64,000 bases of DNA, taken from assembly GCF_900188325.1 (NCBI RefSeq), contig NZ_FZPD01000001.1, forward strand, positions 806,001-870,000, in the 5' to 3' direction. Positions 27,822-63,878 of the stretch are shown piece after piece (within the stretch, counting starts at the first letter, position 1; every line of letters starts with the position of its first letter). This stretch comes from Ekhidna lutea (GTDB lineage: Bacteria; Bacteroidota; Bacteroidia; Cytophagales; Cyclobacteriaceae). Under the pieces are notes generated by a model. The model was not told where the DNA came from, searched no databases, and saw only the letters and a list, made by a program, of their open reading frames with translations. Position numbers and translations under genes: made by a program.

Positions 27822-27826
27822 GGGTG

Positions 27827-27834
27827 CAAAAATA
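27827..27834 (-). promoter_or_regulatory. -7 box abutting the mltG start
   Basis: TATTTTTG on the minus strand ends five bases upstream of the mltG ATG. A transcript from it would have almost no leader. No -33 TTG is seen at good spacing. Confidence 0.4.
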
Positions 27835-27850
27835 GTATGAGAGGTTTGGA

Positions 27851-28369
27851 CTAGAGCAGACTTTTTGGGTATGCTACTGCTCCATAACGTCCATGATGTG
27901 AAATGGATATTTCTTTCTTATCCGGTTCAATGATTGGGAGATTTAATTCATCAGATCCAATGTGATAATCCATTCCGTTTTCACGGAAAAATTCGATGAT
28001 CATGAATCTAATGCCTTCGCTCCAGTCATCTTTAGTTTTAACAAAAACATGATGATCGATTTCATCCAGATTACCACAAAGAGCTATAATATAATTATCG
28101 GTGATTTCGAAACGTCCTCTTATTCCGTCGGATTCAAATGAAATCGATTCATTTTCCTGATTGATTTTGATTAAGATGTTAGAGGGAGCAAAGTTCAATG
28201 GTTCGCGCTTACACTTAAACACTGCCTCCTTAGCAGACCAAAGGAGCCAAAATAAAAGTGGATGATCAATAATTTCATCGCCATCACTTTTTATCATGTT
28301 CAGCGTTCGTTCTGTCCGCTCTTGTAAGAGGGGGTCGCCGAGATCCACTATGTCTATTCCGATTGTCAA
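27851..28369 (-). CDS. 4'-phosphopantetheinyl transferase
   Basis: A 172-residue enzyme that transfers phosphopantetheine from CoA to a Ser of carrier proteins. It has the Mg2+-binding GIDIVDL motif at residues 4-10 and the WSAKEAVFK motif near 48-56, both hallmarks of the Sfp/AcpS superfamily, plus a C-terminal SISHHGRYGAVAY segment. The size is between AcpS and Sfp, as seen in Bacteroidota. It is a plausible activator of the specialised ACP at 57453-57704, though the main ACPs are equally possible. Confidence 0.88.
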   Translation of the reverse strand: MTIGIDIVDLGDPLLQERTERTLNMIKSDGDEIIDHPLLFWLLWSAKEAVFKCKREPLNFAPSNILIKINQENESISFESDGIRGRFEITDNYIIALCGNLDEIDHHVFVKTKDDWSEGIRFMIIEFFRENGMDYHIGSDELNLPIIEPDKKEISISHHGRYGAVAYPKSLL

Positions 28370-31805: not shown

Positions 31806-31890
31806 TTTAATTAGTTTGTAAACGTGAATTTAAAGTGATCTAGTTAATTGGATTTGTTAATTATGCGTTAGAATAAAATCATTGAGGATT

Positions 31891-40173: not shown

Positions 40174-41865
40174 TCACTTTTCAGCTTTAGCGTATTCAAC
40201 CAGGTTCCCATTTCTAAGCTTTATAACCCGATCTGCACAATCGAAAAAGAGCTCATCGTGAGTAATTGCAATAACTGTTTTACCCCTTTTTTTCAAGTCA
40301 GGAATTATTTCTCGATAAAATATCTGCTTAAATGAAGGATCTTGGTTGGCCGCCCACTCATCAAATAAATAAATGTTGGCATTTTCCATAATGGCGCTTA
40401 TCAACCTTAACCGATGAGTCTGACCCTGGGATAATTTTGTCGTGGAAAACCCCCCGTCCTTTATTGAAACCTTTCTATCTATTCTAAATGCTTCAATAAG
40501 CTTTTCCGCGTAATCCTCAGGCAGGTCCTCCGATTTTACCAAGAGTTTATCAAATAAATAAGAATCATCAAAAATGGCTTTAAACTGATCTCGATATCCG
40601 TTACGGTTGTCTTTGGTAATTTCTTCGCCATTGTATTCGATGTGTCCATCCTGGGGGATATAAAGGCCAAGCAAGAGCTTCGAAAGCGTTGTTTTGCCAC
40701 TACCATTTCCCCCTACTATAAAGGTGACTTCATTAGGTTTGATTTTGAGATTTATTGGTCCAAGCAGGAACTGGTCATCTTCCGTGTCATTATAATAGGT
40801 ATAAGTAGCTCCCTTTACTTCAATCAGTCCGGGCTCATCAGCTTTAGTTGCCAACTTCTGAATATGCTTTTTAGTGCCTACGAGTTTTAGGCCCATTTCT
40901 TCTATATTGTTTAAGGCCACCTCAATTGCTTTAATATTCCCGAGAAACCCAGTTGCCGATGATAATGGGGATACTGTAAAAAGCGAGATCAAAAGAAACT
41001 CTCCGAGTAGTTCGAATTCAACAATTTGAGTAGTATATATTCCAAAGATGAGAATAACGATACCAAACAAAAGCATAACATCCGTCATTCTTGAAAGCAA
41101 TGAATTCACAACACTTTCCTTCACTTTCAAATCCTTCTCCTGGTGACTTTTGTCTGTCAATTGATCGTCAAGAAATTTGTATTTGAGTTTTTGATTTAGA
41201 CTTAGCTCTTTAATTCCTTTTACTACAGCTTCTAATTCAACAAATACTTCGTCCCATTTCATTCTAGCCTGATGAGTATACTTTTTTAGGAGTGGAAGCA
41301 TTAGAGATACAATCACGAACGTAAGGCCGAAAACGACAATTGTAAAGCCAAAAAGTATGGGAGAAAGCCAAACCATGTAAATGAAAAGCCCAATGACGGT
41401 AGTCAGTCCCGTAACAATCCCAGGAAACCGATTAATGGCAGTTGAGATAGTAGAAATATCGTGGGTAAGCATTGGTAGCAAGCGTTCTTTATTCTTTTCA
41501 ACGGCACTGTATTCCGCATTAAGAATTTTAGTTGATAGCTGCACTCTTAAATTATGGATGATCGTTTGTGTAAGCCTCGCAAGCTTGTAGGAGCTAAGCA
41601 CTGCAAATGCGGGATAGGCAATGAGCAGAATGCCAACCTTTAAACTGAAATAGATTAAATCTTCTATTCCATTGTTGAGAGTTTCGTGAATTGTTTTTAT
41701 CAAGAGTGTGGAACAGAGACCTGTCACGACGCTGCTGAGAGAAGCAATTACAAAATTTCTCTTTGAAGTCTTGAGTAAATAGTATAAGAGTTTCAAGTAC
41801 TTTCTTTTTGGTTTAAATCGCAAAAAAACGACAACTTGCAGCGGCAAACAAAAAACAATGGACAT
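40174..41865 (-). CDS. SyrD/cyclic-peptide-exporter type ABC transporter (copy B)
   Basis: A permease-ATPase of up to 563 residues. Helices fill the first 320 residues, then come Walker A GGNGSGKTT, an LSQGQTHR signature and the same DEWAANQDP motif as copy A at 31891. The ATG at 41863-41865 overlaps the start of the divergent glycosyltransferase by eight bases, so the real start is more likely the in-frame TTG at 41821-41823 (LRFKPKRKYLKLLYYLL), which gives a more normal N-terminus. It should export the product or intermediate of this locus. Confidence 0.82.
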   Translation of the reverse strand: MSIVFCLPLQVVVFLRFKPKRKYLKLLYYLLKTSKRNFVIASLSSVVTGLCSTLLIKTIHETLNNGIEDLIYFSLKVGILLIAYPAFAVLSSYKLARLTQTIIHNLRVQLSTKILNAEYSAVEKNKERLLPMLTHDISTISTAINRFPGIVTGLTTVIGLFIYMVWLSPILFGFTIVVFGLTFVIVSLMLPLLKKYTHQARMKWDEVFVELEAVVKGIKELSLNQKLKYKFLDDQLTDKSHQEKDLKVKESVVNSLLSRMTDVMLLFGIVILIFGIYTTQIVEFELLGEFLLISLFTVSPLSSATGFLGNIKAIEVALNNIEEMGLKLVGTKKHIQKLATKADEPGLIEVKGATYTYYNDTEDDQFLLGPINLKIKPNEVTFIVGGNGSGKTTLSKLLLGLYIPQDGHIEYNGEEITKDNRNGYRDQFKAIFDDSYLFDKLLVKSEDLPEDYAEKLIEAFRIDRKVSIKDGGFSTTKLSQGQTHRLRLISAIMENANIYLFDEWAANQDPSFKQIFYREIIPDLKKRGKTVIAITHDELFFDCADRVIKLRNGNLVEYAKAEK

Positions 41866-43627: not shown

Positions 43628-45133
43628 CTAGCTTTTATTGTTCTGGTTTAGTTTAAACCGACCTCCAATACCAAAGTAAAAATTCACTCGGTCAAATTGA
43701 AAATATTTGTTGTAATTGTAGCTCAGTGAGGATTCAAATAGTAGGATCAAAGATTGGTATTCTTTGCGCAAGAATCCATGTGCCGAATACTCAATATCAT
43801 GTTTGGCAAGGTTTGCAATATTTGTAACAAAGTAATCTCTGTTGTACTCAATTCTTTGAAAAAGCAGTCCAGCCTTAAAAGTAGGATAGTTTACTTCGAT
43901 ACTCAGGTGATCACTATTTCCTCCCGGTCCAATCCCAGCACCAATGATTTGACCATCATTGGTGTAGCCATTTCGGTTAACTCCATGTTGATAGTAAGAA
44001 GGTGTGCGCCTCCAGAAAATAGCTTGATTTCTTGACAAATTGGTGTGTTCATAACCTATTCTTGTGACATTGCCTTTTTTGGTTAAGACCTCTTTCTCAA
44101 AACCAATGGTATATGCTCGTGTGTGCTCTGGCTCGGACGCTGTATATCTAAAACGAGATTTGGAAGTGAAATCATTCTTGGCGAACTCTGAATATATACG
44201 CAGACCAATTTCTTTAAACTTCCAATCAACGGTAAGTGATACTAACTGATCAAATGCATCATTTGGAGAAAGTGTATCACCATCAACTACACCATCATCT
44301 AAAATAAATAATGTTGACAATAGATCTGTTTTTTCAAAAAATCTTGTTTGTTTATACAGTGATTTGTTGAACCCAACTTTTAATCCTTGGAGAAAATCAG
44401 GAGAGAATGCAATTGCTAGAATGTTGATATACCTTTTATCATTCTCAGGAATATTGTCGAAGTATTCAGATTCATCCAGAAGGCCAAAGATTAAATTCGT
44501 TTCAATCTTTCCTAAATTTTTATTCTTGATTTGAATTTTTACAGGCTCAATCCCAAGTCTTAAGTGAGGAAACCCCCCTGCTTGCCTGCTTAGAACAATT
44601 GGATTAAACGTGGCAGGACCTAGCGAATAATTTTGAGTGGAAAGTGAAGCTATAAATTTTCCAGTATTGAATCTTAATTCGCTTTGGCCTAGATGTACCT
44701 TGACAAAAGCCCCATTTCCATATCGTTGAACCCAATCGATTCTATTTGAAAACTGATACCTAAATTCAGGAACTGAATCACCCCTAAAATGATTCTCATT
44801 TTGAGATAGGAAAACGACTGGAAAGAATGTGAATGAAAAATTTCCTCTTGCGGCATTAAAACCTCCATGTCCTTCGAATCCAAAACCTTTACCAATCCAT
44901 ACTGGACCGTCATTGAGAGCTCTTGGATAGAGTGAATTTGAGGTTGCCTTTATCAGCGGATTAATGAATTTAAAGTTAGATTCTGGCTTATCCCTAATAG
45001 AAGTATAAAGAGATAATGTTGTGGTATCCGATAATTTATCAATCCTTTCTAAATAAATGCCGGGAATGGATACCTGAGCAATTGAATGATGCACTAAGAG
45101 AGTTAAGACAGAAAGAACAACGGGGTTTCTCAT
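43628..45133 (-). CDS. Wzi-like outer-membrane barrel (copy B)
   Basis: A 501-residue paralogue of 28426-29916, placed at ATG 45131-45133 (MRNPVVLSVLTLLVHHSIAQ) for a normal signal peptide. The shared motifs are LNDGPVWIGKGFG, IASLSTQNYSLGPATFNPIVLSRQAGGFPH, GIGPGGNSDH and the terminal GIGGRFKLNQNNKS. It is again a beta-barrel. The two copies lie about 15 kb apart on the same strand, each next to glycan genes, suggesting two export or anchoring modules. Confidence 0.83.
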   Translation of the reverse strand: MRNPVVLSVLTLLVHHSIAQVSIPGIYLERIDKLSDTTTLSLYTSIRDKPESNFKFINPLIKATSNSLYPRALNDGPVWIGKGFGFEGHGGFNAARGNFSFTFFPVVFLSQNENHFRGDSVPEFRYQFSNRIDWVQRYGNGAFVKVHLGQSELRFNTGKFIASLSTQNYSLGPATFNPIVLSRQAGGFPHLRLGIEPVKIQIKNKNLGKIETNLIFGLLDESEYFDNIPENDKRYINILAIAFSPDFLQGLKVGFNKSLYKQTRFFEKTDLLSTLFILDDGVVDGDTLSPNDAFDQLVSLTVDWKFKEIGLRIYSEFAKNDFTSKSRFRYTASEPEHTRAYTIGFEKEVLTKKGNVTRIGYEHTNLSRNQAIFWRRTPSYYQHGVNRNGYTNDGQIIGAGIGPGGNSDHLSIEVNYPTFKAGLLFQRIEYNRDYFVTNIANLAKHDIEYSAHGFLRKEYQSLILLFESSLSYNYNKYFQFDRVNFYFGIGGRFKLNQNNKS

Positions 45134-45183
45134 CGCTTCTTTAAATTTTAGCACATTTTCAATTTAGTCGAATGTGTTCTTCA

Positions 45184-52389: not shown

Positions 52390-53028
52390 ATGACTAGAAC
52401 GTCTACAAATAATACCACTCGTCTCTATAATAACAACTTTTTAGAGATATTGTCCAGGTGCCCTTTCTGGTTGCCATTGGTAGTTTTCATTCCAGTTGTT
52501 TTTTATTTTTCGTTTATTGGATTTACTTCTTTAAGTGAAGGTCTTATACTTGAAGGCATCTTGATCGCTGTTGGAGGAGTTATATCATGGTCATTGACTG
52601 AGTACTTGGTACATCGCTTTGTTTTTCATTACCAACCCAAAAGTGCCTTCTGGAAAAGGTTCGTTTATGTTGTGCATGGAGTGCATCATGATTATCCAAA
52701 CGATTTGAACCGATTAGTTTTTCCAGTAACAGTCAGTATACCGCTAGGGTTTGTTGTTTATTACTTATTTGGACTAATACCATGGACTGTTGAGGCATAC
52801 CATTGGATTTTTTACAGTTTTTATGCTGTAGGTTATCTGTGTTATGACATGATTCATTTTGCCACTCATGCAGTGTCTAACAACAATAAGCTTTTTACTT
52901 CGATCAAAAGGCATCACTTGAATCACCATTATCAAAAATCCAATACAAAGTATGGGGTAAGCTCCGGGTTATGGGATATCGTTTTCAACTCTTTGGGAAG
53001 TAAAAAAAAGGGTGTTCAGGATAAGTAA
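52390..53028 (+). CDS. fatty-acid hydroxylase (sterol desaturase superfamily)
   Basis: A 212-residue membrane di-iron enzyme. Histidine clusters typical of the family are present: YLVHRFVFH near residue 79, VHGVHHDYPND near 97, DMIHFATH near 158 and RHHLNHHYQ near 177. Four hydrophobic helices bury them. This set matches fatty acid 2-hydroxylases that act on ceramide-bound or other acyl chains. In this neighbourhood it may hydroxylate a long-chain base or its acyl group. Convergent to JmjC gene A. Confidence 0.87.
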   Translation: MTRTSTNNTTRLYNNNFLEILSRCPFWLPLVVFIPVVFYFSFIGFTSLSEGLILEGILIAVGGVISWSLTEYLVHRFVFHYQPKSAFWKRFVYVVHGVHHDYPNDLNRLVFPVTVSIPLGFVVYYLFGLIPWTVEAYHWIFYSFYAVGYLCYDMIHFATHAVSNNNKLFTSIKRHHLNHHYQKSNTKYGVSSGLWDIVFNSLGSKKKGVQDK

Positions 53029-53093
53029 CAACCAAAGTATTGACTGGGATTATCTAACATGGCGAGCATGATAACTTGTTTCAACGCATCATG

Positions 53094-54281
53094 TTAAACA
53101 GATTCTTCTTTGCTCTTCTTATCCCATTCAGAAGCAAAAACTGTGTTGAAAAACTCGTTTACTTCATTTTTATTGTTTACTGCTCTTGAAATTGTGTAAA
53201 TAGGTGATTTTTTAGGATTCTTTAAAAATTCAATTATTTGACCTGTAAATAAAATGGACGAATTGGTGATGAGTTTAGAACCTGGTTTCAAGGGCTCTAC
53301 CCATCTGGTAGCACAACCTACAGTCAAGGAACTTAAATTTCTTACATCATGCCACCACCACGGTGGGTTGTAAAGAAGATCTCCCGGCTCTAAAGTAACC
53401 TTATAAACGGGAATATTATTGAAGTAAGGGTGTTCCTTATGCATAAGTTCATAGAAATTCCCTTTCATCCCATGGTTCATTAATTCTGATACTGCAAATG
53501 TCCCGTATTTGCTTAGGGTAGTCTGTAACACCGGTGCATAACTAGGATGAATGAAGTGCCATTCTTTTTTACCCTGGATGTTGAGAAATATATTCTCAGC
53601 ATTAGCAGAATGAAGAGAAGAACGACTCCCGGCATCTCTTTTGATAAACCACTGGTGCAGTGCATAATCCTTTTTTTGAATTTTCCTGAGTTTTCTGCCA
53701 TTACAAAGCCTATAGAAATCCATTCTGTTTAGGATCCCATGAAAATTATTTACGTAATAATTATTGTATTTATCGAGTGTAAGGTAATCCCTTAGACTAG
53801 TCCTGGCTACATTAATATTTCTGCCGTCAGGAGAAATATCTTTATCAAAACTGAAATTTGCACATTCAACTTCAATATCCCCAAATTTCGAAATTAGGTT
53901 TTCTTCTTTGGTAAGTTCCGTAATAGGTGCATCTGACAAAAAGCCTCGTACTACCACAGGTTCATTCACCTTATTTTTCCATTCTTTAAAATTATCATGT
54001 GTAAAATCTTTAATATTTATTTCTGTGATTGCAACCGGACCATTACTCTCAAACTTCTTCCTCTTCATGAGGATTTGAATATTTTTTGAATGAATCTTCT
54101 TGAATTGTTTACCAATGAAACTTGGGTTCTCGTGTTTTATGATGGTTCTCCCTTTCGCATCTTTCTTTCTTAGAGAGAGTTCAAAAATCAGGTCAAATAA
54201 GAAAAGTAATCTCCACCTAAATGAATAAAATGAAGGCCTCAGTGTAGGTAACTTTTTTTTATGAATATTATCTATGTCCAT
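53094..54281 (-). CDS. JmjC/cupin_8 protein with HxA motif (copy A)
   Basis: A 395-residue protein of the cupin_8 (JmjC-like) iron/2-oxoglutarate oxygenase fold. VVRGFLSDAPI starts the fold near residue 110, SSLHSANAENIFLNIQGKKEW (210s-241) is the metal strand and EPGDLLYNPPWWWHDVRN carries the distal His311. The usual HxD is instead H224-S-A226, so the carboxylate ligand is missing. The same is true in the tandem paralogue. The best-known precedent for this change is the iron-dependent halogenases (SyrB2 class), but loss of activity or an alternate reaction remains possible. Confidence 0.8.
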   Translation of the reverse strand: MDIDNIHKKKLPTLRPSFYSFRWRLLFLFDLIFELSLRKKDAKGRTIIKHENPSFIGKQFKKIHSKNIQILMKRKKFESNGPVAITEINIKDFTHDNFKEWKNKVNEPVVVRGFLSDAPITELTKEENLISKFGDIEVECANFSFDKDISPDGRNINVARTSLRDYLTLDKYNNYYVNNFHGILNRMDFYRLCNGRKLRKIQKKDYALHQWFIKRDAGSRSSLHSANAENIFLNIQGKKEWHFIHPSYAPVLQTTLSKYGTFAVSELMNHGMKGNFYELMHKEHPYFNNIPVYKVTLEPGDLLYNPPWWWHDVRNLSSLTVGCATRWVEPLKPGSKLITNSSILFTGQIIEFLKNPKKSPIYTISRAVNNKNEVNEFFNTVFASEWDKKSKEESV

Positions 54282-54486
54282 TAAATTTTTGCATTTAAGC
54301 GAGAAAAACTATTAGAAATAGCCTTTTATAGGGAGTGTATTTCGTTTAGCAAGTAAATTCAAAAGTACAGTATTTCATGTTATTTTATCCGTGTGATTTT
54401 TAACCATTAATGCTGCTAAAGAAACTTTTAAAAGTAACTCTTAATAGCATATGAGATGATTTTTTAATGTCATTTACAGCAAATTA

Positions 54487-55671
54487 CTAAACGGATACTT
54501 TTTTATTCTCTTCCCATTCTGACGAAAAAATACTGTTAATAAATTCTCCCGCTTCTTCTCCATTATTCACCGATTTCCCAATTTTGTAAAGTGAAGATTT
54601 TTTAGGGTTTTTTAGGAATTCTATTACCTGACCTGCAAATAAGACGGGCGAATTGGTGATTAGTTTGGATCGTATTTTTAGAGGCTCCACCCATCTGGTT
54701 GCACAACCAACTGTCAAAGGGCTTAAGTTTCTTACATCATGCCACCACCACGGTGGGTTGTAAAGTAGGTCTCCGGGTTGCAAAGTGACTTTATAAACAG
54801 GAATGTGCTTAAAATAAGGGAAAGCATTGCACATTAGGTCGTAAAAATCTCCTTTTTCGTGATGGTTTGTTAAATCAGACACGGCATAAACACCATATTT
54901 GCTTAGCGTGGCATGGATTAATGGAGTATAACTGGGATGGATGAAGTGCCATTCTTTTTTACCCTGAATGTTCAGGAATATATTCTCTCCGTTAGCACAA
55001 TGGAGCGAAGATCGAACAAGAGCTCCTCTTTTAATAAACCATTGGTTCAATGCATTACCGTTCTTTTGTATTTTTCTAATCTCTCTGCCTTTACAGAGTC
55101 GGTAGAAATCCATTTTGTTTAGTATTCCATGAAAATTATTTACATAATAATTATTGAATTTATCAAGAGTGAGATAATCTCTAAGATTTGTTTTGAAAGT
55201 TGATACATTCCTCCCATCTGAAGATGTTGAGTTATCAACACTTAGATTAACACATTGAACCTCTACGTCTCCAAGTTTAGAGATTAAGTTTTCTTCTTTT
55301 GTTAGCTCCATAATCGGTGCGCCATCTAAAAATCCGCGTACAACAACAGGTTCATTTACTTCATCCTTCCACCTTTTGAAGGTACTATGTGTGAAATCAT
55401 TGATATCCATTTCAATAATCGCTATAGGACCCTCGCTTTCAAAAGCTTTTTCTTTCATAAGTTTTTTGACTGCTTTTGCATGAATCTTTTGAAAGCACCT
55501 TCCAATAAAGCTTGGGTTCTTTTGTTTCTGAAGTGTCTTTCCTTGAGCATTTTTTTTCTTTAGTGAGAATCCAAAAAGCTGATCAAGCAAGAAAAGCATC
55601 TGCCACCTAAATGAATGAAATGAAAACCTTAGCTTCGGTGGCCTCTTTTCAAGTATACTATTTATGTCCAT
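54487..55671 (-). CDS. JmjC/cupin_8 protein with HxA motif (copy B)
   Basis: A 394-residue tandem paralogue of 53094-54281, started at the ATG matching copy A's N-terminus (MDINSILEKRPPKLR). It has the same fold marks: VVRGFLDGAPI, SLHCANGENIFLNIQGKKEW with H224-C-A226 and PGDLLYNPPWWWHDV with His311. The two differ mainly in charged surface residues, so they may act on two related substrates. They are probably co-transcribed from upstream of 55671. Confidence 0.8.
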   Translation of the reverse strand: MDINSILEKRPPKLRFSFHSFRWQMLFLLDQLFGFSLKKKNAQGKTLQKQKNPSFIGRCFQKIHAKAVKKLMKEKAFESEGPIAIIEMDINDFTHSTFKRWKDEVNEPVVVRGFLDGAPIMELTKEENLISKLGDVEVQCVNLSVDNSTSSDGRNVSTFKTNLRDYLTLDKFNNYYVNNFHGILNKMDFYRLCKGREIRKIQKNGNALNQWFIKRGALVRSSLHCANGENIFLNIQGKKEWHFIHPSYTPLIHATLSKYGVYAVSDLTNHHEKGDFYDLMCNAFPYFKHIPVYKVTLQPGDLLYNPPWWWHDVRNLSPLTVGCATRWVEPLKIRSKLITNSPVLFAGQVIEFLKNPKKSSLYKIGKSVNNGEEAGEFINSIFSSEWEENKKVSV

Positions 55672-55837
55672 AAAGTTTTTTCGTTGATTGGGCAATGTAT
55701 TGCAAACACCATTTCTCTATGAGAGAATTAATGGTTTTGCACCAAACGTTGTAAAAATACCACACTTTGTAGGTATACTCAGATCAAGGTGAGGCAAGAT
55801 TATTCTTTGTATTAAAAGCTGAATGAGGTAGTTTTCC

Positions 55838-57409
55838 GTGGAAGATTTCACAGACATGGGGAAAAGAAAAGTTTATTTGATCAATCCAATAGAAGCAGAT
55901 GTAGGGTATTTTAAGTGGCCTAATAGCAGTGGAGGTCTAACCGATTATGTCTACATAGCCGATCTGGCTACAACTTCGGTAGCAAGACTAATGGAATCAT
56001 ATTTTGAAGTGGAAATCTGTGAAGCCTCCATTCAAGGAGTTGATTATTCAACTGATGCTGATTTTATAGCTATAACCGGAAAGATTAGCCAGTGGAATCA
56101 CATGAAGGAGATATCTCAAGAATTTAAGAAGAGAGATAAGACTGTGATTATCGGAGGCTCATACGCCTCTCTTTCATATGAAAAGGTACGACCTTACTGT
56201 GATGTATTAATAAGGGGTGAGATTGAGGAAATTGCTGACGAAATATTTTCTGAAATTGCGTCAGGTAACTATAAAAAGGAATATGTAGGCACACAGCCTG
56301 ATATGTCAAAACTTTTAGTGCCAAGATGGGATCTTTACCCTAACGAGAAAGCACTTATGGGTTCCATCCAGATCTCAAGAGGTTGTCCGTTTCAATGTGA
56401 GTTTTGTGATGTGATTGAATATTTGGGAAGAAAGCAGAGGCATAAACCGGTTGATAATATTCTTTCCGAGCTGGATGAACTTTATAAAGTTGGTTATAGA
56501 GAGGCTTTTATTGCAGATGACAACCTCACAGTTCATAGGAAAAAAGCAAAAGAAATCTTAAAAGCAATTGGCGACTGGAATAGAAAGCAATCAGACGGAC
56601 CGATGTTGTTTAGGACTCAAGCTTCCATTGATCTTGCCAAAGATGATGAAATGATGGATTTGGCGACCTATGCAGGTTTATTCGCCGTTTTTATTGGAAT
56701 TGAAACACCCAATGTGGAAAGCTTGAAGGAAACGAGAAAATTTCAAAACTTAAGAATTGACCTGGTAGATCAAATTCATAAGGTATTCAACAGTGGGTTG
56801 AGTATATATGGTGGAATGATCGTAGGGTTTGATAATGACACCCTTGATATTTTTGAAAGACAATTCAATTTCATTTCTGAATCTTCAATTCCATATGTCA
56901 CCTATGGTCTCCTTAATGCACCGGATCAAACACCACTTCACGAACGATTGGAGAAAGCCGGTAGACTCGTTCCTGAAAATGAAGGAACAGTAGCTGGGAA
57001 TGCTTACGAAACCAATATTTTATTCGAAAATATCTCAACAGAGGAAGCTCAAATAGGCTCAAAATGGCTTATGAATAATATGTATGCCGCAGAAAATTTT
57101 GGAGAGCGACTTTGCCATTTTATAGAATTGTTAGGAAAAGGCGTTCATAATGAACAAAGTTATCAGATAAAATCACTCAATGGGGTTATAAAAGAATTAT
57201 TCAAAGTGATCCGAAGCATAAAAAGAATGGGAGTGGAAGAAGAACAAATGCATGACAGAGTAATAAGAATGCTCTCGAAACACCCTAATGCAACTCCGCA
57301 TGTATTAAACTATCTCTCATTGTATGCTTCTATAAGGGCAACAATGAAATTTAATGACACGTGGGATCAAAACTTAGTAGGAAGACCAGCATTTGAAGTA
57401 CAGTTATAG
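55838..57409 (+). CDS. B12-binding-domain radical SAM enzyme
   Basis: A 523-residue enzyme. Residues about 12-150 form a cobalamin-binding-like Rossmann domain without a clear DxHxxG. The iron-sulfur motif CPFQCEFC is at Cys183, Cys187 and Cys190 (CxxxCxxC), in SRGCPFQCEFCDVIEYLGRKQRHKP, followed by a barrel with IADDNLTVHRKKAKE and IGIETPNVESLKETRK. The last 100 residues look like the DUF4070-type end seen in the HpnP hopanoid methylase class, so methylation of a lipid is a fair guess. It starts at a GTG (55838); ATG at 55856 is possible. Confidence 0.82.
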   Translation: MEDFTDMGKRKVYLINPIEADVGYFKWPNSSGGLTDYVYIADLATTSVARLMESYFEVEICEASIQGVDYSTDADFIAITGKISQWNHMKEISQEFKKRDKTVIIGGSYASLSYEKVRPYCDVLIRGEIEEIADEIFSEIASGNYKKEYVGTQPDMSKLLVPRWDLYPNEKALMGSIQISRGCPFQCEFCDVIEYLGRKQRHKPVDNILSELDELYKVGYREAFIADDNLTVHRKKAKEILKAIGDWNRKQSDGPMLFRTQASIDLAKDDEMMDLATYAGLFAVFIGIETPNVESLKETRKFQNLRIDLVDQIHKVFNSGLSIYGGMIVGFDNDTLDIFERQFNFISESSIPYVTYGLLNAPDQTPLHERLEKAGRLVPENEGTVAGNAYETNILFENISTEEAQIGSKWLMNNMYAAENFGERLCHFIELLGKGVHNEQSYQIKSLNGVIKELFKVIRSIKRMGVEEEQMHDRVIRMLSKHPNATPHVLNYLSLYASIRATMKFNDTWDQNLVGRPAFEVQL

Positions 57410-57452
57410 CTTGTAGTACACCACTTGGCCCTAAGCCATCTGTGAAATTACT

Positions 57453-57704
57453 TTACTTACTAATCCTTGATTGGACAAGTTCTAAAGCATCTCCAACGGT
57501 GTTTATTTTTCCAATTGATTCATCTTCGATGGTAATGCCAAATTGTTCTTCAATATCAAGGATAATATCAACAATATGAACGGAATTAATTTTGAGGTCA
57601 TTGATCAAATGTTGATCAAATGTGATATTGGAAGGGTCTATTTCATCTGGCAAGTAAGCGTCGATTATATCAAGTAATTCAGATTGAATTTTGGTTTTGT
57701 CCAT
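57453..57704 (-). CDS. dedicated acyl carrier protein
   Basis: An 83-residue ACP with a four-helix pattern. The phosphopantetheine Ser41 sits in INSVHIVDI, where the usual DSL is replaced by NSV; the helix after it (ILDIEEQFGITIEDE) is acidic as expected. It overlaps the ketosynthase gene upstream by 26 bases, indicating tight coupling. It is not the housekeeping ACP, which is normally next to fabF in a fab operon with DSLD. The phosphopantetheinyl transferase at 27851 is a candidate activator. Confidence 0.88.
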   Translation of the reverse strand: MDKTKIQSELLDIIDAYLPDEIDPSNITFDQHLINDLKINSVHIVDIILDIEEQFGITIEDESIGKINTVGDALELVQSRISK

Positions 57705-58983
57705 CGTGAGAATATTTTCTAAAAATAAGACTGCAATTTAGGTCTCCAAAACCAAAATTAGTTTTTATTGCTGTTTTTATTTCTTTGTTCTGGGTTTCCG
57801 TGGGGATGCAGGAAGCGGGGATCAATTCCTTGATTCCGGGATGAACATTTTCCTCAGTCAGATTAATGTTCTTGTGAACAAATCCATGGTAGATTTGAAG
57901 TATCACGGCTACAGACTCAATAGAGCCTGCCGCTCCCAGGCAATGGCCAATCATGGACTTTGGGGCATTTATCATGGGGAAATCAGATCCATTAATCCCA
58001 AGGCCGGAGACACAGTTTTCAATTTCGCTGAAGTCTGCCATAGTGGAGGTAAGGTGACCTGAAAGCAAATCAATTTCCCTTGGATTTACTCCAGATTTGC
58101 GAACTGCTTCACTAACGCATTCTGCAGCAGCTTCTGGGTTCTGGGCTGTCATATTGCCTCCATTTCGCATACCCCCACAGTTTCGATGGCCACCCACTAT
58201 CTCTGCGAAAATTTTGGCGTTTCTTTTTTTGGCACTATCGAGGGATTCGATTACAATGGCACCACTTCCGGACCCTGGTACAAAACCCGAACTAGTGTTG
58301 CTCATAGGTCTTGAAGCAAATGTTGGATTAGCATTTGAGTCAGCGCAGAGTACCCTCATTGCGTCAAAACCAGCCCACATATACCTGCCTTCACCTTCAG
58401 TGCTCCCACATATCATTGTTGAGACTTCTCCTGAGGCAACTTTTTCATAGCCTAAAAGTATAGCTTCACTTCCTGTAATACACGCTGACGAATTGCTGGT
58501 AACTTGATAACCGGCCCCAATTAGTTGGTTAAGGTAAGCAGCCGCACCACTATTCATTCCTTGAGTAATGCTTGTGCTATTAAGAGAATTACCTTTCCCA
58601 TCATCAATTTTATTGATCCGCTCACCAATGGAAGAGTCTAGACCCAAACTTCCTGAACCAAATACGATACCAACATCTTTTAACCGATTTTCACCATTGG
58701 TTTTATTACCAGCCATTTGCCATGCCTCCAGTCCCGCCAAGCAGGCATAGATTATTCCCATGCTATCTATTTTACGACTATAGTACTTAGGTAACTTTTC
58801 TTGAATGTAAGAATGTTCCAGGGCAGGCATTCCTGCAACTCTGCAGAAGTAATTAAGGTTTTCTAATTCTTTGCTGTATTTGATACCGGATATGCCATTT
58901 TGCAATGAATTTCTAAACTGATCTACTCCAATAGCATTTGGAGAGATGACCCCCATCCCCGTTACAACCACTCTTTTTTTCAT
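57679..58983 (-). CDS. FabF-like 3-oxoacyl-ACP synthase II
   Basis: A 434-residue condensing enzyme. The Cys-His-His triad is present: Cys168 in TSNSSACITGSE, His310 in SGHLTSTMADFSE and His347 in APKSMIGHCLGAAG. It starts VVVTGMGVISP, and the glycine-rich GSGSGAIVIES is also seen. The replaced AHGTST (SGHLTST) marks a divergent KAS II. Together with the overlapping ACP it forms an acyl-elongation pair, probably supplying an unusual acyl-ACP to the synthase at 60344. Confidence 0.9.
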   Translation of the reverse strand: MKKRVVVTGMGVISPNAIGVDQFRNSLQNGISGIKYSKELENLNYFCRVAGMPALEHSYIQEKLPKYYSRKIDSMGIIYACLAGLEAWQMAGNKTNGENRLKDVGIVFGSGSLGLDSSIGERINKIDDGKGNSLNSTSITQGMNSGAAAYLNQLIGAGYQVTSNSSACITGSEAILLGYEKVASGEVSTMICGSTEGEGRYMWAGFDAMRVLCADSNANPTFASRPMSNTSSGFVPGSGSGAIVIESLDSAKKRNAKIFAEIVGGHRNCGGMRNGGNMTAQNPEAAAECVSEAVRKSGVNPREIDLLSGHLTSTMADFSEIENCVSGLGINGSDFPMINAPKSMIGHCLGAAGSIESVAVILQIYHGFVHKNINLTEENVHPGIKELIPASCIPTETQNKEIKTAIKTNFGFGDLNCSLIFRKYSHDGQNQNSI

Positions 58984-59040
58984 AAGGTTCTCAATTTTTT
59001 GACCGCTACTCTATCAAACTCAAGTTTTTAAATCTATTGG

Positions 59041-60168
59041 CTAGGATATCTTTTTCTTATAACATCTCCTTCTAATATTTACACTTGGGACATTTTTGTC
59101 ATATTCATTCCACATGTTTTGTATAGGAGAATTATCCTCTAGCATCGGTCCAGTTGAGTAATATTCAACTCCATTTTTAATGTAATTCTTAAAAAACTCA
59201 CTAAACATAAGTGATGCAGCTCCTTTTTTTTGATATTCAGGTGTTACGCCTATCAGTAATAAATCTAAATGCTTGTTAAACCAGAAATCCTTAAGAATAT
59301 GAATAAAGCCGAAAGGGAAAAGTGATCCTTTCGCTTTCTGAAAGGCTTTGGATAGTGAAGGGAACGAAATACCAATACCTATTATCTTATCTTCCCGATC
59401 CACAATAAGACAGATGTATTCCTTACGAACCATTCCAAGGTACTGTTCAACGTAATAATTAATTTGTTTTGATGTAAGTGGATAGTAGCCGTAAAGTTGG
59501 CTATATGAATCATTCAAAACTTTAAACATTTCAGTGGCGTATTTTCTTACATCTTTAGCCTTTTTTAGGTGTAAGGCCTTGATGCCAAATCTTTTTGAAA
59601 TAATGCTGGCTAACCTTTCATATCTTTCTGGTAGCTTCTTAGGTGGGATCCCTCGAAATTCTATCCAATCAACAGCCTTTTCGAGGTTCAGGTTTTCATA
59701 ATGCTTAGCGTAATATGGATAGTTGTAAATAGCGGCTTGCGTTGCTATTTGATCAAAACCACTTATCAGAGCTCCTTCATAATCAAGATCGGTGAATCCC
59801 ATCGGACCGTGGATTGCCTCAGCACCTTTTTGCTTGCCCCATTCTTCTGCCTGATTGATCAACGCTTTAGAAACCTCTAAATCATCTATGAAATCAATCC
59901 ATCCAAATCGAATCAATTTCTTTTCTTTTAGTTCCATGTCAAGAGCGATTGCAGCAATTCTGCCTACTATCTCTCCGTTTTTTTCAGCTACCCAATATAT
60001 AGCATCCGCAATTTCAAAGGCTGGATTTTTCTCCTTGAGAAGGGTGTTCATCTCAAATTGGATCATTGGAGGCACGTAGTATTTATTACCCTTGTAAAGC
60101 TTAAAAGGAAATTTGATGAATTTTCTAAGATCCTTTTTTGTCTTTACTTCTTTGAGTTGTATTGGCAT
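59041..60168 (-). CDS. large GNAT-like acyltransferase (possible ceramide-type N-acyltransferase)
   Basis: A 375-residue protein of two GNAT-like halves. VKTKKDLRKFIKFPFKLYKGNKYYVPPM starts the fold, IYWVAEKNGEIVGRIAA is the N-half acyl-CoA strand and ICLIVDREDKIIGIGISFPS and LLLIGVTPEYQKKGAASLM form the C-half motif with GxG/A acyl-CoA loop. Length and neighbourhood next to a serine-palmitoyltransferase-like gene resemble the GNAT-type bacterial ceramide synthase described in sphingolipid clusters; the name is inferred only. Confidence 0.7.
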   Translation of the reverse strand: MPIQLKEVKTKKDLRKFIKFPFKLYKGNKYYVPPMIQFEMNTLLKEKNPAFEIADAIYWVAEKNGEIVGRIAAIALDMELKEKKLIRFGWIDFIDDLEVSKALINQAEEWGKQKGAEAIHGPMGFTDLDYEGALISGFDQIATQAAIYNYPYYAKHYENLNLEKAVDWIEFRGIPPKKLPERYERLASIISKRFGIKALHLKKAKDVRKYATEMFKVLNDSYSQLYGYYPLTSKQINYYVEQYLGMVRKEYICLIVDREDKIIGIGISFPSLSKAFQKAKGSLFPFGFIHILKDFWFNKHLDLLLIGVTPEYQKKGAASLMFSEFFKNYIKNGVEYYSTGPMLEDNSPIQNMWNEYDKNVPSVNIRRRCYKKKIS

Positions 60169-60343
60169 AGGTTGTTTCTAAGACCTCAAATGTATTTCGG
60201 AATTTCTCTACTTGAGAGGTTTTGATATATATTTTAATTCAATTTACCTACAGGTAGACATAATGCTTTACCTGGAACTTTTCAGGCTTTAGTCCATCAA
60301 AAACAACGCAAAATTGAGTTTTGAGGCCAAATAAGATTTAGCT

Positions 60344-61549
60344 TTATGCAGCTTTTGATCTCAGAGGAACCCCTATTTCTTTAGCTATTTTAGCCATCAA
60401 AGAGATCGCTTTGTCAATCTGATCAAAAGTGTGAGTGGCCATTAGAGAAAATCGAATTAGTGAATCCGAAGATGAAACTGCTGGCGATACAACTGGGTTG
60501 ACGAATAGTCCTTCATCGAATAGTCGATGGACAAATTCATAAGCCTTAATATCGTCTCTAATATAAATCGGAATAATTGGAGTTTCTGAATTACCAGTAT
60601 CAAAGCCAATTTCCTTTAATTGTTCCAGTGCATAGCTGGTGTTCTCCCATAGTTTTTGTCTTATTGAGTCATCCTTTTCTATGATATCTAATGAAGCTAA
60701 GGCCGCTGCAGTGGATGAAGGAGTCATACTTGCGCTAAAGATGAGTGCCCGAGATTTGTGCTTGAGGTAATGAATAGTCTCTTTATTGCCGGCAATAAAG
60801 CCACCTACGGAAGCGAGTGATTTACTGAAAGTCCCACCAATGAGATCTACTTCATCAGTTAAGTCGAAATGGTTAGCTGTCCCACGACCATTTTCACCCA
60901 GCACACCTACAGCATGTGCACAATCACTCATTACCACTGCGTTATATTTTTTTGCTAGACGTACAATGCCAGGTAAATCAGCAATGTCACCTTCCATACT
61001 AAATACACCATCTACTATAATAAACTTGACGCCAGGAGCTTTACAAGAGCTGAGCTTTTGTTCGAGAGATGCCATATCATTATGCTTAAATCGCACATAA
61101 GATGCCTCTGAAAGCTTTGACCCCTCATAAATAGAAGCGTGATTAAGTCTATCTAGAAAGATCATGTCTTCTTTTCTTGTGATAGTAGGTATTGTGCCAA
61201 GGTTTACTTGATACCCGGTACTAAATACCAATGCATCTTCCTTACCAAGAAAAGTAGCCAATCTAGATTCCAGTTGTTGATGAAGATCAGTGGTGCCATT
61301 AAGAAATCGAGATCCAGAGCAGCTGGAACCGTATTTTTTTAATGCATTTTCTGAAGCTTCAATCACTTTAGGATGAGTAGTCAGACCAAGGTAGCTGTTC
61401 GATCCGAACATTAGCACATTCTTGCCATTGACTTTAACAATCGTTTCCTGTCTGGCATTAAAAGGCCGAAAGAAAGCATACAATCCTTTTTCCTGGATTT
61501 TTTTGGCTTCATCAAAGCCATAGAACCGATCTCGCAATGGGTCTTTCAT
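60344..61549 (-). CDS. serine palmitoyltransferase-like alpha-oxoamine synthase
   Basis: A 401-residue PLP enzyme that condenses an acyl thioester with an amino acid and releases CO2. Residues include MFGSNSYLGL, GSRFLNGT, His137 in LNHASIYEGS, Asp209 in SDCAHAVGVLG and the PLP Lys243 in GTFSKSLASVGG. Overall it is very close to the bacterial serine palmitoyltransferase of Sphingobacterium (NSYLGL, SRFLNGT, SPAVSSSDSLIRFSLMATHTFDQID). The usual DDAH is SDCAH here. It would make 3-ketosphinganine or, if it uses cysteate, a sulfonolipid base. Confidence 0.9.
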   Translation of the reverse strand: MKDPLRDRFYGFDEAKKIQEKGLYAFFRPFNARQETIVKVNGKNVLMFGSNSYLGLTTHPKVIEASENALKKYGSSCSGSRFLNGTTDLHQQLESRLATFLGKEDALVFSTGYQVNLGTIPTITRKEDMIFLDRLNHASIYEGSKLSEASYVRFKHNDMASLEQKLSSCKAPGVKFIIVDGVFSMEGDIADLPGIVRLAKKYNAVVMSDCAHAVGVLGENGRGTANHFDLTDEVDLIGGTFSKSLASVGGFIAGNKETIHYLKHKSRALIFSASMTPSSTAAALASLDIIEKDDSIRQKLWENTSYALEQLKEIGFDTGNSETPIIPIYIRDDIKAYEFVHRLFDEGLFVNPVVSPAVSSSDSLIRFSLMATHTFDQIDKAISLMAKIAKEIGVPLRSKAA

Positions 61550-61615: not shown

Positions 61616-62530
61616 TCAAATCTCAAAGCCAGACTTTTGCGGATAGCCTTTCCTTAAAAACTCTTGTGTCAATTTCACTACATCTGGATTTAGATTCGAC
61701 CCCTGATCGTCGTTCAGGCAATAAAACTTCGGGCGTTTCTTTTCCAGCCAATCAAAGGCTCTCTTTTGCTTTTTATAGTTATTGGTGATTTTATGAAAAG
61801 CGTGAATTTTTAATAGGTCAGGAAGCTTGATTGCGCTGCAATGCTGTGATTGATATTTGAGCGCATACCATCTATAAAGCTTGTATGTCATTACATCCGT
61901 TCCTTCCCGAAACTTGTGAGACTTGATATCCTCGATAAGTTCTGGTCTCGCGTCTTGCATGCTTTGCCACCATTCTTTTCGTATGAGAAGAGGTGAATGC
62001 TCAATTAAACCCAACCCTACAATATCATTTTTCTTATTGTAAATTCTCCACCCCAAATTTTCGCCAAACAAGGTGCCATGGATTAGTACTTTCCCATCTT
62101 TTGTATAAAAGTCCTCGGGATATACGTCATTCCCAAAAAGAAAATCGTCATTGAGATAAATGAAATCATCAGAGAGTTCTGGGATTTTATGAATATAGCT
62201 TTCAATCACATTGTAATTGAAGGTAGGTACATCTTCAGGATCAAACACTTCATCGTGATGGATGATGGAAATTTTTGGGTGATTGATGTCAAGCCAATCT
62301 GGTTTTTGAGGACGACAGGTGAGTATGTAAATGTGATTTATCCATGGAGCAAATTTTTCCACCGACCGGAGACTGTATTTCATCAACTGATAGATGTCCC
62401 GGGTACGTTCTGGGTTAAGGTCAAGTGGTTTTTCTGAATATTGATTAACTAGCTTTCGGTAATCAGGATCATCTCCATCTACCCAGGTATAAACTAAATC
62501 TATCGATTGATGTATCTCTTTTGGCTCCAA
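61616..62530 (-). CDS. Stealth-family sugar-phosphate transferase
   Basis: A 304-residue protein of the Stealth (capsular hexose-1-phosphate transferase) family. CR1 is DLVYTWVDGDDPDYR, CR2 is LMKYSLRSVEKFAPWINHIYILTCRPQKPDWLD with SDDFIYLNDDFLFG (metal-binding DD), and CR3/CR4-like segments follow (TLFGENLGWRIYN, KIHAFHKITNN). Such enzymes make phosphodiester-linked sugar polymers. It stands head to head with a LicD-like gene 38 bases away and may decorate the glycan of the previous locus. Confidence 0.86.
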   Translation of the reverse strand: MEPKEIHQSIDLVYTWVDGDDPDYRKLVNQYSEKPLDLNPERTRDIYQLMKYSLRSVEKFAPWINHIYILTCRPQKPDWLDINHPKISIIHHDEVFDPEDVPTFNYNVIESYIHKIPELSDDFIYLNDDFLFGNDVYPEDFYTKDGKVLIHGTLFGENLGWRIYNKKNDIVGLGLIEHSPLLIRKEWWQSMQDARPELIEDIKSHKFREGTDVMTYKLYRWYALKYQSQHCSAIKLPDLLKIHAFHKITNNYKKQKRAFDWLEKKRPKFYCLNDDQGSNLNPDVVKLTQEFLRKGYPQKSGFEI

Positions 62531-62568: not shown

Positions 62569-63165
62569 ATGTTACGTCTGACTCAGTATATCAAACGGAT
62601 TGCAAATGTAGTTTTATTCGCTTTGCCCGGTCAATATCGAAAGCGAAAGCTTCAAATTTTGGAAGAGATGTTTCAAAAAGGATTATTAGTTTTAAATGAA
62701 ACAGGAGAGGCATATTGGCTAGATTTCGGCACGCTACTTGGGTATCATCGCACCGGATCTATCATTCCACACGATGTAGATATAGATATTGCTATGATGG
62801 AAAGCTCTTACGAAAAGGTAAAGGCATTGAAAGATAAATTACCTAAAGGTCTCAGCTTTCATGATACATCAGCAAATCATGAGGGGCCTAAAATCTATTT
62901 CTCCTATAAAGGTTATGATTTTGATATTTTCTTTTATGAAGATGAAGGTGAAACGATCCGTACATTTGTTGAAGCAGATTATCCCAACGAACGACAGCAC
63001 ATCCCAAAGGAACTCGTGTACCCCTTAAAAGAAGATATTTTTCTGGGAGAGACGGTCACCGTCCCTTCCAATACGCTTGCTTATCTGGAGCTAATGTATG
63101 GATACCTTGGAACAGGTGGCTGGAGAGATCAGAAAACCGGGCTGTGGCATCCTCCGAGCACTTAA
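62569..63165 (+). CDS. LicD-like phosphotransferase
   Basis: A 198-residue protein with the LicD signature LDFGTLLGYHRTGSIIPHDVDIDIAM, which carries the metal-binding acidic cluster. LicD proteins attach phosphocholine or related groups to surface glycans. The C-terminal half is short (YLELMYGYLGTGGWRD). Its last bases overlap the convergent cytidylyltransferase gene by four, suggesting a functional unit with the Stealth gene divergent beside it. Confidence 0.83.
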   Translation: MLRLTQYIKRIANVVLFALPGQYRKRKLQILEEMFQKGLLVLNETGEAYWLDFGTLLGYHRTGSIIPHDVDIDIAMMESSYEKVKALKDKLPKGLSFHDTSANHEGPKIYFSYKGYDFDIFFYEDEGETIRTFVEADYPNERQHIPKELVYPLKEDIFLGETVTVPSNTLAYLELMYGYLGTGGWRDQKTGLWHPPST

Positions 63166-63878
63166 TCAAGCAAAGGGAGTATCTTTTGTTTGGCACGTTC
63201 TAAGTGTTCCTGATTATCAATTTCGCACCAGGCCAAATCTAACTTTTCTACTGACACCTTATTTTCTTCGGTAAGTTGAGCTATTGCTATCTCATAATCT
63301 TTGGTTGTAGCATCTGATGCTGATTTGTGGTGTGCTTTTAATTTGTCAAGAAGCTCAAAAGAAATCCTCCAAATCCCAACAAGCTCAGCATCTATTGATC
63401 CTAATTCTTCTTTCTTCTTAGAAAGGTTTTTCAATTTACCATCAACTACTTCTACGTACACTTCATCATTTGATTGTGTAAAGTCACTGCAAAGGATCAC
63501 ATCTTTTTTGTTAGAAGTCACCAGAGTTTTGATCGCATCAGAATGGTAAAGCAGATCAGATTCCAACAATAGAAAATCTCCTTTGATTAAACTTGAGCCA
63601 TAAATCAAAGTATGAAAGCTTCCTGTTGTTGCGTAATCAGGACTTAAAAAAGTGGTTAGTCCATTTTCTTTTGCAAACTTTTCATAATGCTCATGCAGAT
63701 GACCTGTGCCGATGATGATATTTTTGATTCCATTTTCCTTAAGAATTCTCACTGATCTTTCGATCAACTTTTCCTCGCCAACCTGCATAAAGCCTTTTGG
63801 GATATCAAAGGTGTATGGTTGAAGTCTGGTGCCTCTTCCGGCGGCTAATATTACTGCGGTTTCAATCGTTTGCGTCAT
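63162..63878 (-). CDS. LicC/PntC-like cytidylyltransferase
   Basis: A 238-residue nucleotidyltransferase. VILAAGRGTRLQPYTFDIPKGFMQVG is the NTP-binding loop with the conserved Lys, then NIIIGTGHLHEHYEKF, SPDYATTGSFHTLIYGS and LLLESDLLYHSDAI. The pattern GF-xxxG and IGTGHLxxxYE recalls cytidylyltransferases that activate phosphocholine (LicC) or 2-aminoethylphosphonate (PntC). It would supply the CDP-linked donor for the LicD-like transfer. Convergent with LicD. Confidence 0.82.
   Translation of the reverse strand: MTQTIETAVILAAGRGTRLQPYTFDIPKGFMQVGEEKLIERSVRILKENGIKNIIIGTGHLHEHYEKFAKENGLTTFLSPDYATTGSFHTLIYGSSLIKGDFLLLESDLLYHSDAIKTLVTSNKKDVILCSDFTQSNDEVYVEVVDGKLKNLSKKKEELGSIDAELVGIWRISFELLDKLKAHHKSASDATTKDYEIAIAQLTEENKVSVEKLDLAWCEIDNQEHLERAKQKILPLLD

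Follow-up and report, generated by a model that had tools for sequence, protein, structure and literature searches.

The window analysed here is a 64,000-nucleotide stretch of the Ekhidna lutea genome (contig NZ_FZPD01000001.1). Near its right end lie eight neighbouring genes that a first-pass annotation took for a biosynthetic cluster making a modified long-chain-base lipid. All eight open reading frames (ORFs) are intact and lie where that annotation placed them. The first encodes a fatty-acid hydroxylase of the Scs7/FA2H type, predicted to be a 2-hydroxylase (FAH, 212 aa; 52390..53028, plus strand; PF04116, 60 bits). It is followed on the minus strand by two Cupin_8/JmjC proteins of the iron/2-oxoglutarate (Fe/2OG) class, the halogenase-like JmjA (53094..54281; Cupin_8, 75 bits; H224-S-A226 ... 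H311) and its tandem partner JmjB (54487..55671; Cupin_8/JmjC; HxA motif H-C-A), which is 69% identical to it. A radical SAM protein with a DUF4070 domain comes next (rSAM; 55838..57409, plus strand; PF04055, 55 bits; PF13282, 33 bits; CPFQCEFC at 183). The last four genes are on the minus strand: a dedicated acyl carrier protein with an NSVH site (ACP; 57453..57704; PF00550), a FabF-like ketosynthase of an uncommon clade (KS; 57679..58983; PF00109/PF02801; SSACITG, GHLTST, KSMIGH), a large GNAT protein that is probably an N-acyltransferase of the bacterial ceramide synthase type (59041..60168; Acetyltransf_1, PF00583, 36.5 bits), and a serine palmitoyltransferase (SPT; 60344..61549; NF047600, 609 bits; pyridoxal phosphate (PLP) lysine motif GTFSK at 239). 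We call these last four genes cluster 1.

The KS and ACP genes overlap by 26 bases, confirming the overlap first reported, and the remaining intergenic gaps within the set measure 43 to 205 bases. The JmjB ORF as listed starts at TTG 55695, but the ATG at 55671 is the more likely start, as it matches the JmjA start in the alignment. By strand there are at least four transcription units: FAH (plus), JmjB-JmjA (minus), rSAM (plus) and SPT-GNAT-KS-ACP (minus). Pfam, NCBIfam and PDB matches agree with the enzyme identities that had been read from motifs, apart from the B12 label of the rSAM, for which Pfam finds no cobalamin-binding domain.

SPT, GNAT, KS and ACP very probably form a sphingolipid core, judging from their sequences and from the company that their relatives keep. 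The SPT scores 609.2 bits over residues 1-394 against the NCBIfam model NF047600 (SerpalmtaseCFB), missing its cut-off of 640, with the next model at 417 bits; it is a close homologue of the solved SPT structures 8guh/3a2b (E about 4.5e-137) and has the PLP lysine. Algoriphagus, which we take to be a member of the Cyclobacteriaceae, bears on an alternative product. It makes a sulfonolipid (PMC3463246), and SPT and cysteate acyltransferase are homologous, so the module might yield a sulfonolipid or other amino-acid-derived lipid in place of a sphingolipid. We consider this very improbable: the window SPT gives 460 bits to the Sphingobacterium SPT in the PDB versus 223 bits to the cysteate acyltransferase 28eh, and NF047600 is by far its top NCBIfam model.

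By its score the window KS is FabF-like but of a separate clade, reaching 251.8 bits against the FabF (KAS II) model TIGR03150, below the cut-off of 493.75. The Cys-His-His active site is kept (C168, H310 and H347, invariant in four aligned rows). The NSV site of the ACP, which had been called non-standard, is there but is not odd in its family. N40-S41 is invariant in 13/13 aligned ACPs, S41 being the phosphopantetheine serine, and in this alignment N-S followed by A or V is the family signature.

Relatives of the KS were called at E<=1e-80 in a family sample of 148 genomes including the own genome (147 others), and found in 24 of the 148, or 23 of the 147 others. All 23 non-own loci were examined with fixed score limits in fetched stretches of 4 to 20 kb each (below, loci carry L numbers and genomes G numbers). 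GNAT is present at 19 of them, SPT at 17, a dehydratase at 17, a short-chain dehydrogenase/reductase (SDR) at 16 and the ceramide reductase-like CerR at 15. They define a recurring operon, SPT-CerR-GNAT-(FabL-like enoyl reductase)-(FabZ-like dehydratase)-KS-ACP, in which the parenthesized genes are usually present. Because GNAT and SPT accompany so many related ketosynthases, we take the core to be a genuine sphingolipid module that brings its own enzymes for chain supply; the operon would serve SPT or the N-acyltransferase as a dedicated line of chain extension. The first reading of the last four genes as acyl-chain supply, base formation and N-acylation thus holds up, since their relatives form an operon together with CerR, enoyl reductase and dehydratase. 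The four loci without GNAT are L104 (a short contig, with the KS flanked by CDP-alcohol transferase and NTP transferase genes), L123 (a polyketide-type set), L152 (SDR-dehydratase-KS-ACP) and L153 (KS and a weak ACP). L122 and L154 have GNAT and no SPT in the fetched stretch, the L122 contig being only 4.4 kb long. Two operons contain tandem ketosynthase genes (L105:9237-11835 in G508 and L106:9427-12025 in G573).

The SDR is a likely enoyl reductase, because Y-x6-K is found in 14/14 aligned rows and FabL is the best NCBIfam model, though below cut-off, for the SDR of the own genome. We had also considered partial reduction, with the SDR as ketoreductase and a 3-hydroxy or 2-enoyl chain leading to a base that, as in the sulfonolipid RIF-1, is 5-hydroxylated or delta-4 unsaturated; this was dropped with the assignment of the SDR as a likely enoyl reductase. 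A delta-4 base could also come from a DES-like protein beside the complete operon described below: L037:8571-9503 encodes a fatty-acid desaturase whose Lipid_DES domain (58 bits against a cut-off of 23) is the one typical of sphingolipid delta-4 desaturases, and homologues adjoin the operon also in L105-L108, L111 and L210. Among the literature matches listed, no title or abstract opening described an SPT-KS operon.

Larger samples comprised 193 other genomes of the order, 324 of the class and 295 of the phylum. In the order the KS clade is rare (4/193, 45-47% identity), and at all four loci KS-ACP is followed by a 4'-phosphopantetheinyl transferase (PPTase; Pfam in 3/4, the fourth by eye) with no SPT nearby. 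The window has a PPTase of its own at 27851-28369 (PF01648), and since proteins of the same family follow KS-ACP at L039, L041, L042 and L209, it may activate the sphingolipid ACPs. A KS-only scan of genome contigs gave no confirmed relative, its patterns being too strict. For GNAT the probable assignment follows from membership in the GNAT family and from the recurring operon with SPT. GNAT proteins of at least 36% identity occur in 11/193 other order genomes, and GNAT alone is no proof of sphingolipids, as the order-sample loci lacking SPT make clear.

A complete version of the operon lies on the same contig of the own genome, past the end of the window, beginning 10.9 kb downstream of the window SPT (L037). 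This cluster 2 has a second SPT (67% identical to the window SPT), a CerR-like epimerase, a second GNAT (58%), an SDR, a FabZ-like dehydratase, a second KS (55%) and an ACP (46%). By this comparison the window SPT, GNAT, KS and ACP are a reduced paralogue of the complete operon. The SPT and GNAT trees both place cluster 1 next to the genus clade without including it there (support 98/97 for SPT, 99/96 for GNAT). We accordingly reject a recent duplication of cluster 2 and regard cluster 1 as an old or an acquired copy. Both trees pair it with G524 at support under 95 (89/84 and 92/83), and the window KS, on a long branch (0.65), is placed differently from SPT and GNAT.

The long KS branch, together with the missing CerR, dehydratase and enoyl reductase, might indicate that cluster 1 is a non-functional, decaying duplicate. 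Its frames are all intact and its catalytic motifs retained, however, and dehydratase and enoyl reductase are missing as well from the related loci L112, L114 and L116; we rate decay as very improbable.

The most interesting part of the locus is the JmjC pair, whose iron-site triads read HSA in JmjA and HCA in JmjB. Relatives were collected by a four-row profile scan of genome contigs, using retrieval patterns without the HxA position, and came from 21 loci; per record titles the family spans several phyla. H224, A226 and H311 are invariant in 18/18 aligned rows. A motif count over the window and 25 loci, with the third residue left free and with L141/L169 and L142/L171 counted twice, gave 34 motifs: 33 HxA, one HxS and zero HxD/E. 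This fits the pattern of Fe/2OG halogenases of the OocP/SyrB2 kind, in which the carboxylate of the facial triad is changed to Ala or Gly and both histidines are kept. JmjC pairs recur, since L173, L174, L175 and L177 each gave at least two motifs. The best PDB sequence match of JmjA, and its top phmmer match, is the halogenase OocPQ (8a82, E 1.8e-14). An AlphaFold model of JmjA built from 18 rows (pLDDT 77.6, pTM 0.83; a model of JmjA alone at pLDDT 33 was discarded) also has a known halogenase as its nearest fold, Foldseek placing 8a82, "Fe(II)/aKG-dependent halogenase OocPQ", first (E 3.5e-17, TM 0.57/0.62) with the folds of JMJD7, FIH, JMJD5 and TYW5 close behind (E 1.7e-15 and weaker).

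At 11 of the 21 loci a polyketide synthase (PKS)/nonribosomal peptide synthetase (NRPS) protein or an acyl-AMP-ligase-ACP-reductase protein lies within about 6 kb of the JmjC gene, confirmed by Pfam at L168, L175, L177, L178, L180 and L173, and called from KS BLAST matches in long proteins at L169, L170, L171, L172 and L185. At L173, L175 and L177 the HxA JmjC genes are near acyl-AMP ligase, ACP, thioester reductase and AurF proteins; this set looks from its genes like an undescribed lipid pathway, though no literature search was aimed at it. Two further loci, L166 (Aestuariivivens sediminis) and L167 (Flavobacteriaceae S0862), hold a cluster with an MMPL exporter, methyltransferases, a P450, a class III aminotransferase-like protein and a GNAT that is 26-28% identical to the window GNAT, although Pfam assigns the L166 GNAT no family. 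Neither a carrier-protein enzyme nor an L166-like cluster was seen in the portions examined of L165, L174, L176, L179 and L181-L184. The nearest relative, L165 (42%), comes from a genome that carries two SPT genes (62% and 61%), each with KS, ACP and GNAT genes close by. Its record (PBTY01000006.1) is labelled a Rickettsiales metagenome-assembled genome while its sphingolipid operons resemble those of the window family, and the label may be wrong. The genomes of L166, L167 and L183 gave no SPT-like match above 39%.

In SyrB2-type halogenases Ala takes the carboxylate position (PMC2767507), and the ones characterised up to 2013 use substrates bound to carrier proteins (PMC4019311); OocP with OocQ is reported to chlorinate during chain elongation (PMC11260071). 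Given these precedents, and with an ACP and a KS next door, halogenation of an ACP-bound chain is our preferred role for the pair. If JmjA and JmjB act in the pathway, we put halogenation at even chances, on the strength of family, motif, modelled fold and neighbours.

The main rival is that both are two-histidine hydroxylases adding hydroxyls to the same lipid or acyl-ACP. Hydroxylase folds match JmjA almost as well as OocPQ does, and the Algoriphagus sulfonolipid RIF-1 carries 2- and 5-hydroxyls (PMC3463246). Precedents from the literature also count against halogenation: natural AspH has a two-histidine iron site and FIH D201G is reported to be catalytically viable with one, yet both hydroxylate, and no halogenase activity was seen for AspH (PMC6817910). 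The P4H variant D414A likewise does not halogenate (PMC2767507). What speaks for a halogenase is that it is the best match by sequence as well as by fold, that the HxA position is near-fixed in the family and that about half of the loci adjoin carrier-protein enzymes. We rate the hydroxylase explanation as less likely than not. The step left open by the first-pass annotation as an unknown JmjC reaction can in this way be narrowed to a halogenase-like family associated with carrier proteins, though no JmjC gene was found at the related KS loci in the stretches fetched.

The FAH is probably a 2-hydroxylase. Yeast Scs7 is its sole PDB match at E<=1 (E 1.8e-23, residues 15-201), and the PF04116 domain is accompanied by the His boxes HGVHH and HHLNHH. 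Homologues are common, being found in 120/148 family genomes at E<=1e-8, and we examined the context of the best 11 non-own family loci (39-46% identity), where some contigs are short. SPT, GNAT, CerR or Ino1 lies at most 10 kb from FAH at five of these (L146, L147, L150, L151 and L197), only a CDP-alcohol transferase at L149, L196 and L198, and neither at L144, L145 and L148. Chain tailoring by this enzyme is therefore probable from its Scs7/FA2H likeness and from its nearest loci, but no FAH gene was found at the 23 KS loci.

The rSAM has the CxxxCxxC motif (PF04055). Pfam shows no B12-binding match, with Radical_SAM_N2 under its cut-off, and the 21 NCBIfam matches are all below cut-off, several of them to B12-binding rSAM families. 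Homologues were found in 72/295 other phylum genomes (E<=1e-50, up to 38% identical) and in 6/147 other family genomes (E<=1e-40, up to 34%), and in none of the 193 other order genomes at E<=1e-60. SPT is absent from all three family rSAM contexts examined. The methylation that had been assigned to it is thus a guess, with no NCBIfam model at cut-off; C-methylation is only possible, and a role in the pathway is unsupported. Two loci with distant homologues, each a single case, were not used as evidence: L193 (G482), where some 0.7 kb separate a 35% FAH-family gene from an rSAM-like frame that is split in two (30% and 25%), with a further rSAM (29%) 11 kb away and no SPT, and L181, where two rSAMs (33-34%) sit beside JmjC.

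The eight genes lie in a variable part of the chromosome that is given to surface glycans. Two genomes of the same genus, G607 and G511, share with the window the genes for MltG and the PPTase on one side (window 26787-28369). On the other side they share Stealth, LicD, NTP transferase, PEP mutase (PepM), phosphonopyruvate decarboxylase (PPD), 2-aminoethylphosphonate (AEP) transaminase and the complete sphingolipid operon. The left edge of this conserved downstream neighbourhood is a Stealth-type sugar-phosphate transferase gene outside the eight (61616..62530, minus strand; Stealth_CR1/2/4), with homologues at the matching place in G607, G511, G508 and G573. From PPTase to Stealth the distance is 33.2 kb in the window, 10.9 kb in G607 and 6.9 kb in G511, where an extra 12.0 kb stands between NTP transferase and LicD. 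Scanning 10 proteins of the variable stretch of the window found glycosyltransferases, two Wzi-like capsule assembly proteins (28426-29916 and 43628-45154) and two ABC transporters (31882-33522 and 40174-41865); the Wzi-like proteins and the transporters have homologues in the same region of the relatives. Cluster 1, the JmjC pair, rSAM and FAH have no counterpart in the corresponding region of G607 or G511.

Phosphonate pathway genes adjoin the complete operon and are syntenic across the same-genus genomes. At window 62569-63878 and L037:2041-5547 are LicD, NTP transferase, a PEP mutase with an N-terminal cytidylyltransferase-like domain, phosphonopyruvate decarboxylase and 2-aminoethylphosphonate transaminase, which might supply a phosphonate for a head group or a glycan. 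The complete operon is also flanked by an NTP transferase (L037:16576-17310), a CDP-alcohol phosphotransferase (L037:9507-10424) and a candidate myo-inositol-phosphate synthase (L037:17418-18731) with just 24.8 bits to an NCBIfam model. A similar flank of inositol-phosphate synthase, NTP transferase and CDP-alcohol transferase is present at the sphingolipid loci L147, L150 and L151.

Several results weigh against joining the eight genes in one pathway. Their opposite strands exclude co-transcription of all eight, so the set is not one operon, and the complete set was met only at the window locus. JmjC, rSAM and FAH occur at 0/23 family KS loci within the fetched stretches, and the three same-genus genomes sampled are without JmjC (E<=1e-8) and without rSAM (E<=1e-40). 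JmjC was found in 0/193 other order genomes at E<=1e-10 and in 0/324 other class genomes at E<=1e-35. Weak homologues (28-35%, E<=1e-8) occur in 4/147 other family genomes, none beside SPT; three of the four holders also have KS (hypergeometric 0.012), a post hoc association that we do not rely on. Linkage of JmjC to SPT is not conserved, the L165 JmjC gene sits on a different contig from both SPT genes of its genome, and 10/21 JmjC loci show no carrier-protein enzyme in the portions examined. Within the core, CerR, enoyl reductase and dehydratase are lacking from cluster 1, 5/10 GNAT loci fetched from the order sample have no nearby SPT, and a 17-row GNAT profile finds just weak RimI-type PDB matches. 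As a conserved unit the eight genes therefore fail, while the sphingolipid core among them stands more firmly than first claimed.

A rival explanation of these results is that only SPT-GNAT-KS-ACP, perhaps with the hydroxylase, is a functional unit, and that JmjC and rSAM are chance neighbours from surface-glycan or other metabolism. The variable PPTase-Stealth distance, the glycan genes filling that stretch, the mixed gene directions and the related KS loci, where JmjC and rSAM were not found, all fit. Set against them are the short gaps between the eight genes and the resemblance of the JmjC relatives to genes of biosynthetic clusters, 11/21 being near carrier-protein enzymes and two (L166 and L167) near a GNAT related to that of the window. 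We regard chance neighbourhood as a real possibility that still falls short of even odds; the rival explanations are partly compatible and not all mutually exclusive. Participation of the JmjC pair in the sphingolipid pathway is, from the sequence comparisons, an evenly balanced question.

Our tentative preference, held with somewhat less than even confidence, is that the locus is a second, reduced sphingolipid module in which core, hydroxylase and JmjC step belong to one pathway. In it, KS would make or lengthen an acyl chain carried by the dedicated ACP, drawing on housekeeping FabG and on a dehydratase and an enoyl reductase that are either shared or housekeeping. JmjA and JmjB, without the iron-binding carboxylate, would act on the ACP-bound chain, most likely by halogenation. 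The next steps would be condensation of the acyl thioester with serine by SPT, N-acylation by GNAT and reduction of the 3-keto group by the CerR of the complete cluster nearby, as the recurring operon and the order published for bacteria suggest. The Scs7-like protein would hydroxylate C2 of the N-acyl chain. The product would be an envelope sphingolipid, 2-hydroxylated and possibly halogenated. The full proposal, a halogenated sphingolipid from a JmjC-fold Fe/2OG halogenase pair working on the chain of a sphingolipid-dedicated ACP, with SPT and N-acyltransferase completing a ceramide and the recurring type II KS-dehydratase-enoyl reductase-ACP supply line alongside, is speculative and on balance unlikely.

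If it were true, bacterial sphingolipids would gain a chemically new class; we know of no class of halogenated bacterial sphingolipids. None was named in the titles of the literature matches listed. The recurring operon and the HxA JmjC family stand independently of the eight-gene claim, and both are testable. That a sphingolipid operon brings along a condensing enzyme and an ACP, and usually a dehydratase and enoyl reductase too, would explain how the length or kind of the chain is set. The HxA JmjC family, which here adjoins SPT, may be a source of halogenases that act on lipids and polyketides.

The yeast Scs7/FA2H enzyme (4zr0, 4zr1) shares with FAH the matched residues and the conserved His boxes. 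FAH has the FA_hydroxylase domain alone by Pfam, whereas Scs7 also carries a cytochrome b5 domain. For the JmjC pair the comparison is with OocP/OocQ of the oocydin trans-AT PKS (8a82; PMC11260071, PMC4552970), which likewise have the Cupin_8 fold, a carrier-protein setting and a paired arrangement. Identity to JmjA in the fold alignment is just 18%, and 8a82 chain A (taken as OocP) reads HQG in the phmmer alignment in place of HSA/HCA. OocQ is termed an auxiliary protein, while both window JmjC proteins are Cupin_8 paralogues.

For the core we compared three bacterial systems. The Caulobacter ceramide pathway Spt-bCerS-CerR (PMC11087976) likewise combines an SPT, an N-acyltransferase and, as in cluster 2, a CerR-like epimerase-family reductase; the operon here differs in including KS, ACP and, at many loci, a dehydratase of FabZ type and an enoyl reductase of FabL type, and cluster 1 in being without CerR. 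Among the literature matches listed, the remaining two are the nearest precedents. In Rhodobacteria a specialised ACP is likewise encoded with SPT (PMC9386255), but its partner there is a putative acyl-CoA synthetase and here a condensing enzyme; no word starting with "ketoacyl" was found in PMC9386255. The PKS-derived sphingolipids of SgaAB (PMC12134224) are likewise made by a condensing system that builds the chain and is coupled to an SPT-like enzyme, but SgaA is an iterative type I PKS, in contrast to the discrete type II proteins and the GNAT of the window.

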